A stretch of 64,000 nt of DNA, from the NCBI RefSeq assembly GCF_009740395.1, contig NZ_WOXT01000001.1, forward strand, positions 368,464 through 432,463. Direction: 5' to 3'. Below the pieces are notes generated by a model, which was given only the letters and a program-made list of their open reading frames with translations, was not told the origin of the DNA and did no database searches. The position numbers and the translations under genes were made by a program. Each line of letters opens with the position of its first letter. The stretch's first letter is position 1. Below are positions 3,637 to 35,266 of this stretch, piece by piece. The DNA is from Noviluteimonas gilva. GTDB lineage: Bacteria; Pseudomonadota; Gammaproteobacteria; Xanthomonadales; Xanthomonadaceae.

Positions 3637-4203
3637 TCAGCCGCCGTTGTCGTCGGCGGGCGGCGTCGAAGTCGAAGCAGCCGAGTCATGGCCCGCGTGA
3701 TCCGAAGCATCGGCCGACGTGCCCTTGTCCTTCGTGCCCCAATCGTCCTTGCCGGGCTTGTCCTTGGTCATCATCTTGTCGTGGCCGGAATCCATTTCGG
3801 TGCGCGAGAGCATGCCGTTGCCGTCGGCGTCCATCTTGCCGAACATTTCCTTCGCACCACCGCCGTACTCGGCGGCCGACAACTTGCCGTCCTTGTCGGT
3901 GTCCATCTTGGCGATCTTGTCGATGGACTTCATGTCCATGCCGTGCTTCTCGCCCTTGTCGGCGGTCTTCATCGACGCGTGCCTGGCATCCATCTCGGCG
4001 GACGTCACGAAGCCGTCCTTGTCGGCATCCATGTCGCCGAACATCTTGGTCACGGCGGCGTCGTGTTCGGCGGCGCTGACCTGGCCGTCGTTGTTGGTGT
4101 CCATCATCTTGAACTTGTCCTCGCCGCCATGGTTCGCCGAGGCGCCGAAGGCGACGCTCGAAAGAACGGCGACGAGGCACATGTGCAGTGTCTTGCGGGT
4201 CAT
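3637..4203 (-). CDS. Secreted EF-hand protein with acidic tail
   Basis: About 188 residues from ATG 4203, chosen over the in-frame ATG at 4218 because a GGAG lies about 8 bases before it. The N-terminus is a signal peptide ending near ASANHG. Four EF-hand loops start at about Asp35, Asp59, Asp101 and Asp125 with good D-x-N/D-x-D/N-G spacing and a Glu at position 12. The tail is rich in Lys, Asp, His and Ser and looks disordered. The protein is Met- and Lys-rich and probably binds calcium in the periplasm or outside the cell. It shares architecture with the protein at 410-883. No catalytic domain is visible and no partner can be named. Confidence 0.85.
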   Translation of the reverse strand: MTRKTLHMCLVAVLSSVAFGASANHGGEDKFKMMDTNNDGQVSAAEHDAAVTKMFGDMDADKDGFVTSAEMDARHASMKTADKGEKHGMDMKSIDKIAKMDTDKDGKLSAAEYGGGAKEMFGKMDADGNGMLSRTEMDSGHDKMMTKDKPGKDDWGTKDKGTSADASDHAGHDSAASTSTPPADDNGG

Positions 4204-17600: not shown

Positions 17601-19063
17601 AGGTACGCACCGGTGGCATACACCAGGCCGATGTCTGCATGGCCGTACACGGAGATGTCGCCCGTGTTGTCGATGGACGCGTTGCCGAGCGGGCCGCGCG
17701 ATTGCGCCACCGCGCCCCAGCCTTGCGCGATGCCGTACTCGACGGAAGCGACCGATGCGATGCTGCCGTCGTTGTCGACGTGCGCGGCGCCGTAGTCGAA
17801 GCCGTAGGTTTGCACGGCTTGCGAGCCGATCGCCGCCGCGTATTGCACGGTCGCGCCATCGCCGCCCTCGACGACCGCCGAAGCGACGATGCCGCCGGTG
17901 TTCACGATGGTGGCGTCGTAGACCCACGAGAGGTCGTACGCGCCGACGGCCGCGGCGTTCACCGTCGCGTGTGCGTCGACTTGCACGTCGCCGGCATTCG
18001 TCACCGACGCGATGCCGATGTAATAGGTCGCGTTGACGAGGCCGGCGGCGATGGCCTCGTCGCCCTGCGCGAGGACCGAGACGTTGCCGTCGTTGGAGAT
18101 CGTCGCGTCGAAGTAGTAACCGATCGAGCGCACGCCGGTGGCGTTGGCTTCCCCGCCCGCGGCATCGGCCACGACGGTGATGTCGGCGACGTTCACCGCG
18201 CTCGCGCCGTAATAGCCGAAGGCGTCCAGCCCGACGGCATTCGCCAGACCCGCTTCGGCCTGCGCAAACGCGGAGAGGGTGCCATTGTTCTCGATCGCGA
18301 CATACGAGCCGAACACGTGCGCCGCGGTTGCCTCGGCGGTGCCGCCGGACTGCGCGATCGCGCTGGCGGTGGCGCTTGCGTCGTTGAAGATCGACGCGAC
18401 GTTCGCATTGACGAGCAGGCCCTGCGCAGTCGCGTCGGTGCCGGTCGCCGTGGCGGAAACATCGCCACCGTTGATCATCAGGCCGATGCCCGCGCCGCCG
18501 CTGTAAGCCACCGCGCCGTACGCAGCAGCCTCACCGTTCTCGCTCGCTGCGTGCGCGTCGATCGAACCATAGTTCACCAGCGTCGCCACACCGCCCGCCG
18601 CTGCGTACGCGCCGACGGCCATCGCGTCGCCGTCCACCGTGTGCGCGTTGGCGACGATCGTGGCGTCGACCACGTTCGCCAGGTACGCCTCGAAGCCGCC
18701 GATCGATTCGACGCCGTACGACGTCGCGTCGATGGCGGCGCCGGTCGCATTCGCGGTGATCGACGACAGATTGGAAACCGACGCGGCGTACGCGTTGTAT
18801 TCGCTCAATCCGACCGCGTCGCCGTAACCGTCGACGACGATGACGTCGCTGTTGTCGGCCATCGCCACGACGCTCGCCGAAAGCGGCACGCGCGTGAGGT
18901 CCACGGGCGCCACGGCCGCACCGTTGCCGGCGAGGGAGGCGACGGGCGCGGAGAGGGCCAGCATCGCGATGCCGATGCGGATCGCGCGCGCCACGGGGGC
19001 GATCGCGGGGATCGATCGGCCGTGTGCGCCGTGGCGACCATGGATACGTGCAGGTGCGGACAT
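14612..19063 (-). CDS. Giant autotransporter (type Va) with repetitive passenger
   Basis: A 1483-residue exported protein. The start at 19063 has GAGGGAG a few bases upstream. Residues 1-46 form an extended signal peptide ending near PVASLAG. The passenger, roughly 50-1195, consists of many imperfect repeats in which 'I.N.G.I.A.A' strands alternate with Tyr/Gly-rich turns such as 'YGYYDA...'; this is the signature of a right-handed beta-helix. The last about 280 residues are an autotransporter beta-barrel with the C-terminal motif VVLRRRW, ending in an aromatic residue. The protein would be surface-exposed, perhaps for adhesion or autoaggregation; no protease triad is visible. Long opposite-strand open frames over this gene result from its codon bias. 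Confidence 0.9.
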   Translation of the reverse strand: MSAPARIHGRHGAHGRSIPAIAPVARAIRIGIAMLALSAPVASLAGNGAAVAPVDLTRVPLSASVVAMADNSDVIVVDGYGDAVGLSEYNAYAASVSNLSSITANATGAAIDATSYGVESIGGFEAYLANVVDATIVANAHTVDGDAMAVGAYAAAGGVATLVNYGSIDAHAASENGEAAAYGAVAYSGGAGIGLMINGGDVSATATGTDATAQGLLVNANVASIFNDASATASAIAQSGGTAEATAAHVFGSYVAIENNGTLSAFAQAEAGLANAVGLDAFGYYGASAVNVADITVVADAAGGEANATGVRSIGYYFDATISNDGNVSVLAQGDEAIAAGLVNATYYIGIASVTNAGDVQVDAHATVNAAAVGAYDLSWVYDATIVNTGGIVASAVVEGGDGATVQYAAAIGSQAVQTYGFDYGAAHVDNDGSIASVASVEYGIAQGWGAVAQSRGPLGNASIDNTGDISVYGHADIGLVYATGAYLQTIAGYSDVVNEGDIVASGWVGDGYAYVTGINAISAPANGFYGASTIDNHGQIEAHAVGHGAIVFGRAIQMQGDTSVVNNAAGATILATAETELFGGAFATAISVYGKHAVDIVNDGDIVAYGLAHDYGQYYGASRATGIEAVANVYGDISIVNNGDITATSVAVDGVTFFAQGVRAVGIDTYAKYDAIIDNSGTITATGISEIGIASAYGGITEGKYYGHFSNSGDIVAYASVGTLAGDYAAGRSFATGTTLYGSEIGLTENTGSITAYAITHVEANENAGSAISMAFGAKNSATMSSTIVNDGDIAVSARADFGMASAYGTFVQGGYAGLTTNAGAITALARSDNGNAFAVGAYTYAQIFEYQGCDETGCHYAPVGGDARIDNAGDIHAGASAVGGIGYAYGSVVIGLEAAATSNTGRISAMVDADDALAVGSLTRAVDGAATLDNSGNIVATAYGAQASSTAAFLSATGDAIVHNTGTIAAFGDGERIAISVVGDARATINNGGVLVGAIRTGALDDAFNNAAGGAWRLVGDSDFGAGANRFTNAGMMQVEGEASLLLGASNTLRNDGAIGFVDGDTDDALTLVGELSGNGRLAFDVDGITGAHDALTVQGNVAAGTQQVVDVALIAVPTSTNTEIQLVSVTGDADAQSFALGRVTQAADGFLSMGFQLGSHVDASNATPDLITLGVHVDGLNAMGALGSALAPGVQALVEAQVGTWRERMGVLRPGPGVLAPFVRWFSESGDIDATHAGLVPTQGGAFDQSTTGWEAGLEARPVETVAVGALVAVSDATQRLDAGGEDRLDATTFGLFATWMPTDAAYVDASYRWIGVDAELRAASGVHESSASAQAFNVEGGYAWTLGNGLRLMPQLQYTWTRIADLSPLEGALSTFTAEGSDVSRWRAGLLADTAIERNGAVWTPYASLNAVHVSGAEFDYAVNDVFAGVVDTNGTSALVEGGVGFQRGAWSVTGGLHWLDGGSRDGAFGGQVVLRRRW

Positions 19064-31177: not shown

Positions 31178-32968
31178 TTAAGACTTTTCCTTCGATTTGG
31201 CGCCTTCAAGTTGAAAGACCGGAGTACTCACGTCAGCCCAACGCGATAGCGCCCAAATCGCAATCCTCTGGGAGCGGACTTCAAGACTCTCGGGATTCCA
31301 GTCCGAAAACTCATCCAAGAGATGCTTTGTAGTTGCAAAGACCGTCTCATTACCTAGTCGATCACGCGTCTCGCGCCAAGACCGATTGCCTTTGCCGGAG
31401 TTCGCTTGAGCTGAGAGGGGAACCAGGTTCGCCCATGTGTCGATCCACCTATTAATCTGGGCCTTGGTGAACTTCGACGCCCAGTCAGCGGTTGGAGATT
31501 GTGGAAGAACATGGTCCGCGGTCATCTCAGGGAAGGTCTTGAGAACATCCCCTTTGGTAAACGAACGCTCAAGTTCCAGCATCGCAAAGTTTCGAATCTT
31601 GCGCGTGTAGAGCGGAGCGCTATCGATTGCGATCTTGAACTCCTCGTCGTTGGGGAACTTCACGGTCTTGTTTTCGAGTTGGGCGCGTAGCTTTCCAATA
31701 TTTGTGCCCACCTGCGGCCAAAGGCCTTTGAAAACCGCATGGAGGCCAGTGGGCTCGATGCCAGACATCGCACGTCTAAACAAGAAGGTTTCGACTAACA
31801 GGAGCGCCTTGGCCGCATCCTGCTCAGATTCCGCCCCAGATCGAACTGCTGAGTGAAGGGAGAAGATGTAAGGGTAAACAACCGATGGGCAGCGCATTCG
31901 GTGCAGCGCGTCTAGACGATCGGTGTAAACACTTCTGGGCAAGCTAACGGACTTGCCTTCGCGCAAGTGGTGATAGACGTCGACGTGCTCGCGCAGATCA
32001 TCCATCACGGCCGAAATCTGCTCGATCGGGGTCGCCGCCGCCCCATAGGTAGCAGCCCATCGCTTGGACAAGGAAATAAAGGTCCTTGACTTAGTAACGC
32101 CGCTATCCCGAGTCAACGCGTGTGGAAAGAAATAACCCTCCATAGTTTCTTGAGAATTGAAACTCTCCTCAAAGGGTCGCCACTGTGTGGTGTACACCTC
32201 TTCCGCCGAGGATGCGTCGTCCTTGAGCCGCTTTAAGACCTCATTTCGAATGAGATCAACGATGCCGAGTCGGGCGCCTTCCTTATTGAGACGATCAAAG
32301 ACCTCGTTGGCGTCATGCTTTTGGCCCAATCTGATTTCAACAAATTCTAGCTTTTCGAGCAGCACTTCTCGCAGGCGGCTCACAAGCTCGACTGATACTT
32401 TATTTTCAGCATCTAGACACCTACGACGAACCTCTTTTCTGATTAGTTCATACGCATCAATAAGAGTGCCCGTGGAAGCGCCGGACTCCTGCGCCCGAAA
32501 GACCTTCGCCTTCTCTCCTAGCGTCGAGAGTACGACCTGATTGAACTGGCGGGTGTCCTGCAGTGTCGGTGAAAGCTTTGGCTGGAGCCGCGAAGTTGTC
32601 TTTCGCGACAACAAGTACTCATCGGAAAGTGCATCGGATAGTTCCGAACTACCTGCTTCCTTCGCAACGAGACTCAAAGCACAAAGACTCAAGTACAGCG
32701 ATGTCAATCGCTGTTGCCCATCGATGATCCAATAAAGTCCTGGCGAACTAGATGTCGAGGCCGACTCATTGTCAAAAACGAGGGCGCCCAAAAATCTCAC
32801 ATCGCATTGGCCTTCGAGAACTGAGTCAATATCGTCCCAAAGCCTTTTGATGTTATCCGGCTTCCACACGTATGGCCGCTGAAATAACGGGCAACGCAGC
32901 GAGTTGTCCGCTGAAAAGAGTTGATGAAGAGTTACAGGATCAGCAGCAAGTTGTTCTGTGGTTGCCAT
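31178..32968 (-). CDS. GmrSD-like DUF262/DUF1524 protein (candidate anti-phage nuclease)
   Basis: A 596-residue protein with both halves of the GmrSD type IV restriction family in one chain. The DUF262 (GmrS-like) half has LFQRPYVW near 28-35 and the signature DGQQR at 83-87, which bind and hydrolyse nucleotide. The DUF1524 (GmrD-like) half has the His-Me nuclease motif DHVLPQ starting near residue 485 followed by ANLVPLSAQANSGKGN. Such proteins restrict phages with modified DNA or phosphorothioate-dependent systems; which modification is targeted cannot be told. The base composition is visibly lower in GC than the flanks and its codons include ATA, AGA and TTA-type ones, suggesting recent transfer. 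The small gene at 33102-33413 lies upstream on the same strand. Confidence 0.88.
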   Translation of the reverse strand: MATTEQLAADPVTLHQLFSADNSLRCPLFQRPYVWKPDNIKRLWDDIDSVLEGQCDVRFLGALVFDNESASTSSSPGLYWIIDGQQRLTSLYLSLCALSLVAKEAGSSELSDALSDEYLLSRKTTSRLQPKLSPTLQDTRQFNQVVLSTLGEKAKVFRAQESGASTGTLIDAYELIRKEVRRRCLDAENKVSVELVSRLREVLLEKLEFVEIRLGQKHDANEVFDRLNKEGARLGIVDLIRNEVLKRLKDDASSAEEVYTTQWRPFEESFNSQETMEGYFFPHALTRDSGVTKSRTFISLSKRWAATYGAAATPIEQISAVMDDLREHVDVYHHLREGKSVSLPRSVYTDRLDALHRMRCPSVVYPYIFSLHSAVRSGAESEQDAAKALLLVETFLFRRAMSGIEPTGLHAVFKGLWPQVGTNIGKLRAQLENKTVKFPNDEEFKIAIDSAPLYTRKIRNFAMLELERSFTKGDVLKTFPEMTADHVLPQSPTADWASKFTKAQINRWIDTWANLVPLSAQANSGKGNRSWRETRDRLGNETVFATTKHLLDEFSDWNPESLEVRSQRIAIWALSRWADVSTPVFQLEGAKSKEKS

Positions 32969-33101: not shown

Positions 33102-33413
33102 CTACTTCTCTGCTGCCGCTCTTTCGAGATCGGCAATCATCTTTTCTATTTTTTCGCCTACGTTCGCGCCGACATGCTTTGCTGGCTTTAAGCCGTCTAT
33201 CCACGAACGCCCCATTGAGGACAGAACAAAGGAGATGTTCTGCATGCGAAATTCGAAGGACTTAACACTTCGACCAAACGTGTTGGACAGCTCCTCGTAA
33301 ACGTGGCGTTTGACGACAGGCCGCCCCTCTCGTGCATCCTTCTGCATGGCCAGGTATGCGCCCACGGCTGCCCGCAATTCTTCGTCCGTCCAGTCTTCTT
33401 TCGGCATCTTCAT
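33102..33413 (-). CDS. Stand-alone HNH-associated N-terminal domain protein
   Basis: 103 residues from ATG 33413 (GGGAG four bases upstream); ATG 33407 is also possible, and the frame extends to 33560 without a better start. The sequence fits the domain often fused to the N-terminus of HNH endonucleases: WTDEELRAAVGAYLAM, then a basic linker, RSVKSFEFRMQNIS and a closing 'G..WIDGLKPAKH'. Here no HNH domain follows, because the protein stops soon after. It may be a DNA-binding accessory or a remnant. It lies 133 bp upstream of the GmrSD-like gene, shares its lower GC, and was probably acquired with it. Confidence 0.6.
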   Translation of the reverse strand: MKMPKEDWTDEELRAAVGAYLAMQKDAREGRPVVKRHVYEELSNTFGRSVKSFEFRMQNISFVLSSMGRSWIDGLKPAKHVGANVGEKIEKMIADLERAAAEK

Positions 33414-33756
33414 AAGCTCCCTATCTTGGGACTTATCGCGAAATTTCGCAGAACAAGCAAGCGAAGATCGCATGAGGTTGATGACCTTCGCTCCTTTAGC
33501 CAAAGCCGACCTGCAATTCGCGTCTTGAGCGTGTTGACTAAAAGCGAGCAATGACCCCAAGCCTCAACATCTCTATGGGCTTGAGTTGCGTTGGCCACTG
33601 AGAATTACGCTTCTCTCGCTTAAGCGCTGCAGCAGATATCCACAGCCGCGCTAACGCGCAAATGAAGCTTCCTCACTTGTCTGATGTGACTCATAGTCCG
33701 TCGCCATCCACAAACCACGCTGCTCCAATCTCGCGACCACCCACGCGAGATCAACG
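33414..33756. other. Intergenic region, no gene
   Basis: About 340 bp, moderately low in GC, separating the small HNH-associated gene from the YegP-like gene. It must hold promoters for the two divergent genes, but I can see no clear -35/-10 pair, hairpin or repeat that I would defend. Confidence 0.5.
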
Positions 33757-33993
33757 ATGCACGCGACCTCCGACTACCGCCGCCAGTTCGTCCTCTCCCT
33801 CAACGCCCACAACCGCTGGCGCTGGTTCCTCTACGACGTGGGCATGAAGCCCATCGCCAGCGGGTTCGGCACCTATCGGACCTACGACGAGTGCGTCGCA
33901 AGCACTCGCCAGGCCATCGGCATCGCGCACGACGCAGCGATCTGGGATGCAACACACCAGCGCTGGGAGGAAGGCGTCGGCGTTAGCGCTTGA
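33757..33993 (+). CDS. Small YegP-like protein
   Basis: 78 residues. The segment NRWRWFLYDVGMKPIASGFGTYRTYDECVASTRQAI has the strand-turn-helix layout of the YegP/DUF1508 repeat ('F.l...G..ia.s..Y.s...c...i..vk'), though with only one unit and few identities, so this is tentative. The ribosome site is weak (GAGA). Its stop lies about 40 bp before the hairpin repeat array, which could be its 3' untranslated region. Function unknown. Confidence 0.5.
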   Translation: MHATSDYRRQFVLSLNAHNRWRWFLYDVGMKPIASGFGTYRTYDECVASTRQAIGIAHDAAIWDATHQRWEEGVGVSA

Positions 33994-34031
33994 GGATCGC
34001 CCTGCGCAATCGATGGCGAAGTCTTTCCTCT

Positions 34032-34619
34032 GAGATGCTTCGAAGGGATTCCGAGATGGAGAACTCCTCCTTCGAGATCCGCTTGGAGCATCTCAGCTTG
34101 GAAATTTCCGCCTCCGAGATACGTTCGAGCGATCTCAATTGGGAAATTTCCGGCTCCGAGATACGTTCGACGTATCTCAGCTTGCAAACTTCCCATGTGA
34201 GAGCACGTTCGAAGTGCTCCAGTTGGGAATATTCTGCCAATGGAGCACGTTTGAAGTCCTCTGCTGGGGAAAATTCCGCCTTCGAAGCACGTTTGAAGAC
34301 CTCCAACGCGGAAAATCCCTCCTCCGTTGCACGATTGGAAGGCTTCAATGGACAAAGTTTGTCCATTGAAGCCCGATCGAAGGGCAAAGGAAGGGAAAAT
34401 TCCGGCATCGGAGCACGTTTGAAGTTCTCGCGAGAAGCCACTTCCTTCTCGCGACACCGATTGAGGTTCTCCCGAGACGAAGATTCGTACTCGTGAGACC
34501 GATTGATGGTCACGGGAGAAGACAACTCCTTCTCACGACACCGATCGAAGGTCTTGGGAGAGGAAGATTCGTTGTCGCGAGACCGATTGGAGGTCTCCGA
34601 TCAGCTCGCGACCTTCTCC
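34032..34619. repeat. Array of 14 imperfect 42-bp hairpin-forming repeats
   Basis: Fourteen units of exactly 42 bp, starting at 34032, 34074, 34116, 34158, 34200, 34242, 34284, 34326, 34368, 34410, 34452, 34494, 34536 and 34578. A conserved 'CG[A/T]T[C/T]G[A/G]' box lies about 6 bases into nearly every unit. Each unit can pair within itself around that box and with the next unit around a GGAAATTTCC-like centre. Arm sequences change along the array yet remain complementary: GAGATACG/CGTATCTC at 34158-34178, GTGCTCCA/TGGAGCAC at 34214-34248, a perfect 33-base palindrome at 34341-34373, TCGCGAGAAG/CTTCTCGCGA at 34428-34454 and GAGACC/GGTCTC at 34579-34597. Open frames on both strands lack credible starts, so I treat it as non-coding. 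Confidence 0.9.
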
Positions 34620-34729
34620 GATGAAGAAAAAGCACTCATCCATGAAGTCCGGAGCGCCAACCGGGCGCCGTCCGCGTCGGTGACCCGCTCTCCACCCCAC
34701 CCCTCCGCCCCCAGGCGTACCCTTCCCCC

Positions 34730-35266
34730 ATGCCCCCCGACTTCGACAACTTCGACCCCGACGACAACTTCGGCGCGTCCTTCTCCGCCTCGACCGATCT
34801 CGACGAGGACGCCGCGCTCGAGGCCGTCGTCTGGCAGCTGCTGCTCCTGATCAATCCGGGGGACGAGGATTCGGCGACGCTGCAGTTCGCCGAGATCCGC
34901 GAGGCGCTCACCGGCGGGGCGGAGCCCATCGATGCCATCCGCGATGCGATCGACTGGAAGGCGGGGTTCTTCCTCGCCGAGGACGATGCGGGCGGGGTGG
35001 TCGAGGCGGTCGATGAGCTCGCGGCGCGGGTCGGGGTGCGGGTGGATTGGGACCTCGACGACGAGGCCGACGACGCGCTCGCCGATGCCGATGCCGGGTC
35101 GCTGCTTTCGCGGGCGGCGGTGCAGTTGCGGGAGCGGGGGTATTCGCTCTGGTTGTGGGAGAGCGGGAGCGAGCATGTCGCCGGGTGGATCGCGGCGCGC
35201 TCGGACGACGAGGCGTTACCGATGGTCGCCGGGGCGATCGGGTTTCATGTGCGGGCCGCGATCTGA
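34730..35266 (+). CDS. Acidic protein, possibly DUF6630
   Basis: 178 residues, rich in Asp and Glu (DFDNFDPDDNFG at the start, DLDDEADDALADADAG near 118). A helical segment LEAVVWQLLLLINPGDEDSA and a later RERGYSLWLWESGSEHVAGWI recall DUF6630 proteins, but I hold this loosely. It is cytosolic, with no signal or membrane segment. It follows the repeat array by 110 bp, and no RBS stands out. Its high GC matches the chromosome, marking the right edge of the lower-GC accessory stretch. Confidence 0.55.
   Translation: MPPDFDNFDPDDNFGASFSASTDLDEDAALEAVVWQLLLLINPGDEDSATLQFAEIREALTGGAEPIDAIRDAIDWKAGFFLAEDDAGGVVEAVDELAARVGVRVDWDLDDEADDALADADAGSLLSRAAVQLRERGYSLWLWESGSEHVAGWIAARSDDEALPMVAGAIGFHVRAAI

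Follow-up and report, generated by a model that had tools for sequence, protein, structure and literature searches.

Intergenic minisatellites, or VNTRs, are built of tandem units arranged head to tail that differ among relatives. A CRISPR array is composed of near-identical repeats with unrelated spacers between them, and REP/BIME elements are dispersed in many copies through genomes that carry a Y1 (RAYT) transposase. In the passage cited here, REP elements are small palindromes of 20–40 bp that lie outside genes (PMC3733652). The palindromic amphipathic repeat coding elements (PARCEL) are dyad-symmetric tandem repeats of varied sequence which, in the section of the source that is cited, encode repeats of 25 residues (75 nt), most of them recognised by DUF285 (PMC2996958). 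At the level of mutation, quasi-palindrome template switching is an established class in Escherichia coli (PMC7202029) and template switching gives multi-base compensatory change and maintains hairpins (PMC8794818); in the cited parts of these two papers the arms of imperfect inverted repeats converge by arm-to-arm copying at separate hairpins. Borg repeats are the subject of a further source (PMC9879509). Among the matches listed from open-licence PMC papers, an array such as the one reported here is not described.

The array lies in a 64-kb window (the whole stretch of DNA that was analysed). Like minisatellites it consists of head-to-tail units of constant length; unlike minisatellites it combines diverged units with an absence of indels and with covarying palindromic arms. 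In a comparison between species, the orthologous arrays of the congeners G002 and G004 differ from it in length and sequence. It is not divided into near-identical repeats and unrelated spacers as a CRISPR array is, the whole unit being partly conserved (mean column identity 65%). With PARCEL it shares tandem repetition, dyad symmetry and diverse sequence, but its period is 21/42 bp and not 75 nt, it shows no coding signal, and no family of the DUF285/TIGR02167 type was found in five (Pfam) or three (NCBIfam) array frames. The difference from the published hairpins is that here the changes would have built up along 14 tandem units whose boxes are conserved. Spread by a transposase, as a mobile or REP-like element, would suit an array that is palindromic and intergenic, varies among congeners and lies near defence-type genes. 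However, blastn found the array as a single copy in its own genome, with no dispersed copies, and the Y1 transposase was present in one of the five genus genomes (G003) and absent from the three array-bearing genomes (G000, G002 and G004). We consider such an origin exceedingly improbable.

Architecture of the array

The array occupies positions 34031–34618 and consists of 14 units of 42 bp, each made of two 21-bp halves, without indels; neither the array nor its palindromes are assigned to a strand. The exact period and the number of units had been recognised in a sequence-only reading of the window, which placed the array one position too high. Self-comparison gave an identity of 0.617 at a lag of 42, 0.583 at 84 and 0.545 at 126, and at the other lags from 1 to 129 the identity never exceeded 0.36. 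Neighbouring units are on average about 62% identical, yet no insertion or deletion was found. The GC content of the array is 0.524, compared with 0.661 for the window, and the array is best described as a non-coding, AT-richer intergenic satellite. A 7-bp rhythm in A/T content was detected in this array (power 14.2) and also in that of G002 (9.7).

Two boxes recur on the forward strand. Box 1, with the consensus CGNTYGR (34038–34590), occurs once per 42 bp in units 2–14, unit 1 being deviant; its columns hold C in 14 of the 14 units and G, T and G in 13 each. Box 2, about GGAAAATTCC (34058–34613), starts with a copy at 34058–34067 and returns every 42 bp; it is weaker than box 1 and is degenerate in units 8, 10, 12 and 14. 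The two boxes are spaced about 21 bp apart within each unit. A search of the window for three copies of the box core CGNTYG set 42 bp apart gave 12 matches, 11 of them inside the array, compared with 0.03 in shuffles. Both the column counts and these matches support the earlier observation that the box between the arms is conserved.

Related arrays

Homologous arrays, for which the sequence-only reading had proposed a search, exist in G002 and G004. G002 (Lysobacter dokdonensis) carries a shorter 42-bp array at the same intergenic place. In G004 the same place is occupied by a 42-bp (2 × 21) array of largely different sequence (G004a; lag-42 identity 0.85), and a second array, L046, lies at another locus; no array was found at the orthologous place in G001 and G003. 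Using blastn, the window array was matched in G000 and G002 only, among 395 family genomes, with no match in plasmids or phages. G004a was matched in G004 only, among 297 genomes, and L046 in G004 and in one sequence from another family (L108, which has no tandem repeat), among 60. A pooled sequence model was built from 25 of 51 units, hand-picked for an in-register TTYGR-like box (12 of the 14 units of the window array, 5 of 12 of G004a, 4 of 13 of G002 and 4 of 12 of L046). Among 198 genomes it detected G000, G002, G004 and a weak single match in G147 (E 0.075), with a sensitivity that is limited, since the search missed L046. The HTH ORF adjacent to L046 runs into the array as listed, although its start may lie further downstream, as an internal ATG suggests; a dyad, TGTACGCCACTGGCGTACA (L046:1443–1461, 9-nt arms), lies near this HTH-type gene and would perhaps be an operator if the internal ATG is the start.

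Low-GC tandem arrays were sought in 2.46 Mb, that is 120 stretches and the window, several of the stretches having been chosen for a known array or a DUF6630 site. Thirteen places were obtained. Four were the window, G002, G004a and L046 arrays, and two others, L181 (G001) and L227 (G004), also had lags of 21n; the remaining seven had other best lags, and the one inspected was a 23-bp repeat. This repeat, at L227:10573–10687, has about five units and a low GC content and falls outside the 21n class. Periods of 21n are thus a rule among the related arrays, L181 and L227 having been picked partly for their 21n lag. The L181 array (18306–18600) has a 21-bp period and lies 5′ of a NERD gene, about 7.5 kb from the DUF6630 gene of G001. 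The L227 array (3795–4070) is a palindromic 21-bp array at the 5′ end of a DUF938 gene, with a heptad coiled-coil reading on both strands. Several other candidates were discarded: loose periodicity scans returned many GC-driven matches, L089 and L103 were judged by eye to contain surface-adhesin-like heptads and L075 dispersed palindromes, and L144:16481–16880 was adhesin-like.

Palindromic arms and their covariation

The unit has two palindrome axes, at position 11 (box 1) and at 31.5–32 (box 2). All the arm pairs singled out beforehand were located: GAGATACG/CGTATCTC within 34158–34178, where the hairpin GAGATACGTTCGACGTATCTC surrounds box 1 in unit 4, GTGCTCCA/TGGAGCAC at 34214–34221 and 34241–34248, TCGCGAGAAG/CTTCTCGCGA at 34428–34437 and 34445–34454, and GAGACC/GGTCTC at 34579–34584 and 34592–34597. 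In unit 10, the third of these pairs forms the perfect 10-nt arms of a palindrome that surrounds box 2 (34428–34454) and has a 7-nt centre. The 33-bp perfect palindrome that had been reported is likewise present, at 34341–34373, with 16-nt arms, a 1-nt centre and a template-switch-like character; no perfect arms of 16 nt were found in 105 further blocks of 588 bp taken from the window, where the longest were of 13. Palindromy was evaluated against a column permutation that keeps the tandem structure, a plain base shuffle being too lenient. The window array exceeded this null (0/500), as did L046 and L227 (0/500 each) and G002 (3/500); G004a was marginal (25/500). L181 was not significant (148/500) and therefore counts merely as a 21-bp array. 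Near-palindromes of 9 pairs were not denser in the window array (18) than in the 105 background blocks (mean 21.8), and the excess over these blocks was limited to its strongest near-palindromes.

Covariation is commonly taken to prove selection for an RNA stem. Around box 1, the stem (7 pairs in 14 units) gave a covariation score of 0.484, compared with 0.226 ± 0.045 in shuffles that take no account of kinship among the units (0/500), and the score fell to 0.042–0.214 when the partner was slid by 1–3 columns. Standard pairs filled 74.5% of the cells versus 58.4% in shuffles, the Watson–Crick pairing per unit at this axis being only 3–7 of 7. Changes were two-sided in 23 cells and one-sided in 3, where cells represent sequences and not events. 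The stem around box 2 was weaker (0.326 versus 0.220 in shuffles, 15/500), and no covariation was detected with its axis half a base off, at 31.5 (235/500). The arms covary, as had been claimed, and do so in excess of shuffled repeats.

Local likeness of the arms in both orientations

The arms had also been described as complementary both within units and across their boundaries, and the two proved equal in degree. The left arm pairs with the right arm of its own unit at 0.70, with that of the adjacent unit at 0.71, with that two units away at 0.57 and at ten units at about 0.27; the values at lags 12 and 13 were 0.36 (n = 4) and 0.43 (n = 2). This slope of decay was matched by 2 of 1000 permuted unit orders. 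At lag 1 the direct identity of the same arms was 0.68 and 0.59 and the inverted identity 0.69, so that arm likeness is equal in the two orientations. Likeness among the arms of the window array is local, reaching about 1–3 units, and is as strong in direct as in inverted orientation. The identity of box 1 stays at 0.63–0.79 up to lag 7, while that of the arms drops to about 0.3. A similar decay was observed in the orthologous array of G002 (from 0.59 to 0.31 by lag 7). The L046 and G004a arrays showed pairing without decay over distance, and in L046 pairing within axes was not significantly above pairing between axes (445/5000).

These measurements bear on the possibility that the array is selected as RNA, forming successive hairpins either in the transcript leader of DUF6630 or in a separate RNA. 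The strong fold of the window array (z = −9.55) and its covariation would agree with such an RNA. However, when each strand was folded, as the sequence-only reading had recommended, the opposite one was equally strong (z = −9.82). G–T and A–C mismatches were equally frequent, 18 of each among 252 pairs in a small sample that takes the better of neighbouring axes at 28 places, and pairing with the neighbouring unit matched that within the unit. With one strand folded in each, L046 gave z = −5.17 and G002 z = −2.05. In G004a there was no strand symmetry, the gene strand being no better than shuffles (z = 0.15) and the other strand giving −3.72. A search of Rfam over 33500–35000 returned no family above its gathering score; the two matches obtained (E 1.0 and 1.2), one of them in the array, were far below it. 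No promoter- or terminator-like site was found by simple consensus. A selected RNA appears distinctly improbable to us. Selection for structure and template-switch repair that remakes the palindromes had been offered as alternative causes. Our data lean towards the latter; selection on RNA is disfavoured by the symmetric mismatches, the folding of both strands, the neighbour pairing and the preponderance of two-sided changes.

Copying of arms at the DNA level

The arm pattern fits copying at the DNA level better than RNA selection. We give somewhat better than even chances to the explanation that the arms of the window array have been copied in both directions at that level, through quasi-palindrome template switching combined with local duplication. 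Arms would spread in direct orientation by slippage or unequal exchange and in inverted orientation by template switching, in which a stalled nascent strand would fold at a quasi-palindrome and one arm would serve as template for the other. Such copying, repeated over time, would cause arms to change together without selection on RNA. As judged from the sequence, a copying origin is suggested by the equality of neighbour and own pairing, by the symmetry of mismatches and by the dominance of two-sided changes, and the strong covariation seems to have arisen through copying of the DNA in both directions. If this is confirmed, methods that detect covariation could use the array as a control, and template switching could be measured there across evolutionary time.

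Template-switch-like axes numbered 2 of 40 (28 in the window array and 12 in L046). At axis 34357 the arms pair at 11 of 11 positions and their best homologues match only 8 and 7; because both arms deviate from their homologues, donor and recipient are indistinguishable. At axis 1736.5 of L046 the arms pair at 9 of 10 positions, the right arm has a 10/10 homologue in another unit and the left arm reaches at most 7/10, so that one arm matches its homologues and the other only the reverse complement of its partner. The same test gave 0 of 26 in L227, an array that was set aside as support for copying because it looks coding. A tally of L046 arm types by eye (XX′ 3, XY 6, Y′Y 3 and Y′X′ 0 of 12) agrees with template switching; it is not significant (0.75 expected) and was kept out of the support. 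We infer template switching as a probable cause of arm likeness, on the strength of these two events and of what has been published on quasi-palindromes. Copying alone predicts neither the conservation of the boxes nor zero indels at about 40% divergence of adjacent units, and it leaves the persistence of the boxes and of the 21-bp register without explanation while the arms drift.

Conserved boxes as a possible DNA element

Because the boxes are conserved while the arms drift, the array may have a structural role at the DNA level; that box and register stay constant also allows for a function. In a selected DNA element the boxes would be recognised either as sites in double-stranded DNA, separated by two helical turns, or as the loops of extruded hairpins, and the arms would need only to pair. 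This would explain why the boxes are kept while the arms drift to chance. By eye, TTYGR-like boxes were also seen in the arrays G002, G004a and L046, where they recur at every other 21-bp step or at some of these steps, and all four arrays with such boxes have 21n periods. In the inspected cases the arrays lie 5′ of a gene, with a small ORF intervening in G004. On the other hand, four units have a degenerate box 2, and the array is absent from the orthologous place in two of the five genus genomes (G001 and G003). Curvature was rejected as a common property of the arrays: computed with wedge parameters, it exceeded shuffles in G004a alone, and 192 of the 200 shuffles were more curved than the window array. 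A selected element of this kind is in our view rather unlikely. It is unlikely, too, that the arrays form a lineage-restricted class of DNA elements in which loop boxes two helical turns apart are selected, as sites or as loops, and template switching keeps the arms paired with their sequence free; if true, this would be a self-repairing palindrome array whose structure is kept without its sequence being kept. Compared with a proven working part, the array looks more like the trace of a DNA copying habit.

Coding potential

If translated, the array would yield a peptide that repeats every 14 (or 7) residues in one frame. The period is divisible by three, there are no indels and both strands have long open frames. 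Stops were fewer than in column-shuffled arrays (16 versus 27.7 in the window array, 23 versus 26.0 in G004a, 16 versus 24.1 in L046 and 8 versus 13.2 in G002), a deficit to which we give little weight because the column shuffle breaks the arms too. The L227 array does resemble a coiled coil read in heptads, its two stop-free frames having a mean BLOSUM62 of 1.44 and 1.73 for changed codons. In the window array, by contrast, no frame had more conservative codon changes (−0.29 to 0.12) and conservation showed no three-base rhythm (4266/10000). One frame, interrupted by a single stop in the window array and open throughout in G002, contains five stops in G004a when matched by eye through the boxes, and the most conservative frame of G004a (1.69) contains five stops. 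Pfam gave no matches for five array frames and NCBIfam none for three. We regard translation of the window array as very improbable.

Flanking genes

The array is flanked by a small gene of 78 aa (33757–33993, + strand) that had been called YegP-like, an assignment that found no support, as no family was matched in Pfam or NCBIfam. Among 395 genomes of the family, this gene was detected in 5, and it lies on the same side of the array in G002 and G004. The DUF6630 gene (34730–35266, + strand; PF20335, E 8.9e-18) begins 111 bp after the array and was found in 232 of the 395. In G004 the small ORF between the array and DUF6630 (L013:2064–2378, − strand) has QIVNRFADYK-like internal repeats, as seen by eye, and no Pfam match. 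The candidate defence module that had been placed next to the array was recovered: a GmrSD-type gene (31178–32968, − strand; PF03235 and PF07510) is matched by PADLOC to Orf5/HEC-06, and beside it a gene at 33102–33560 (− strand) matches PDC-S36. The two genes likely form a small defence cassette that adjoins the array.
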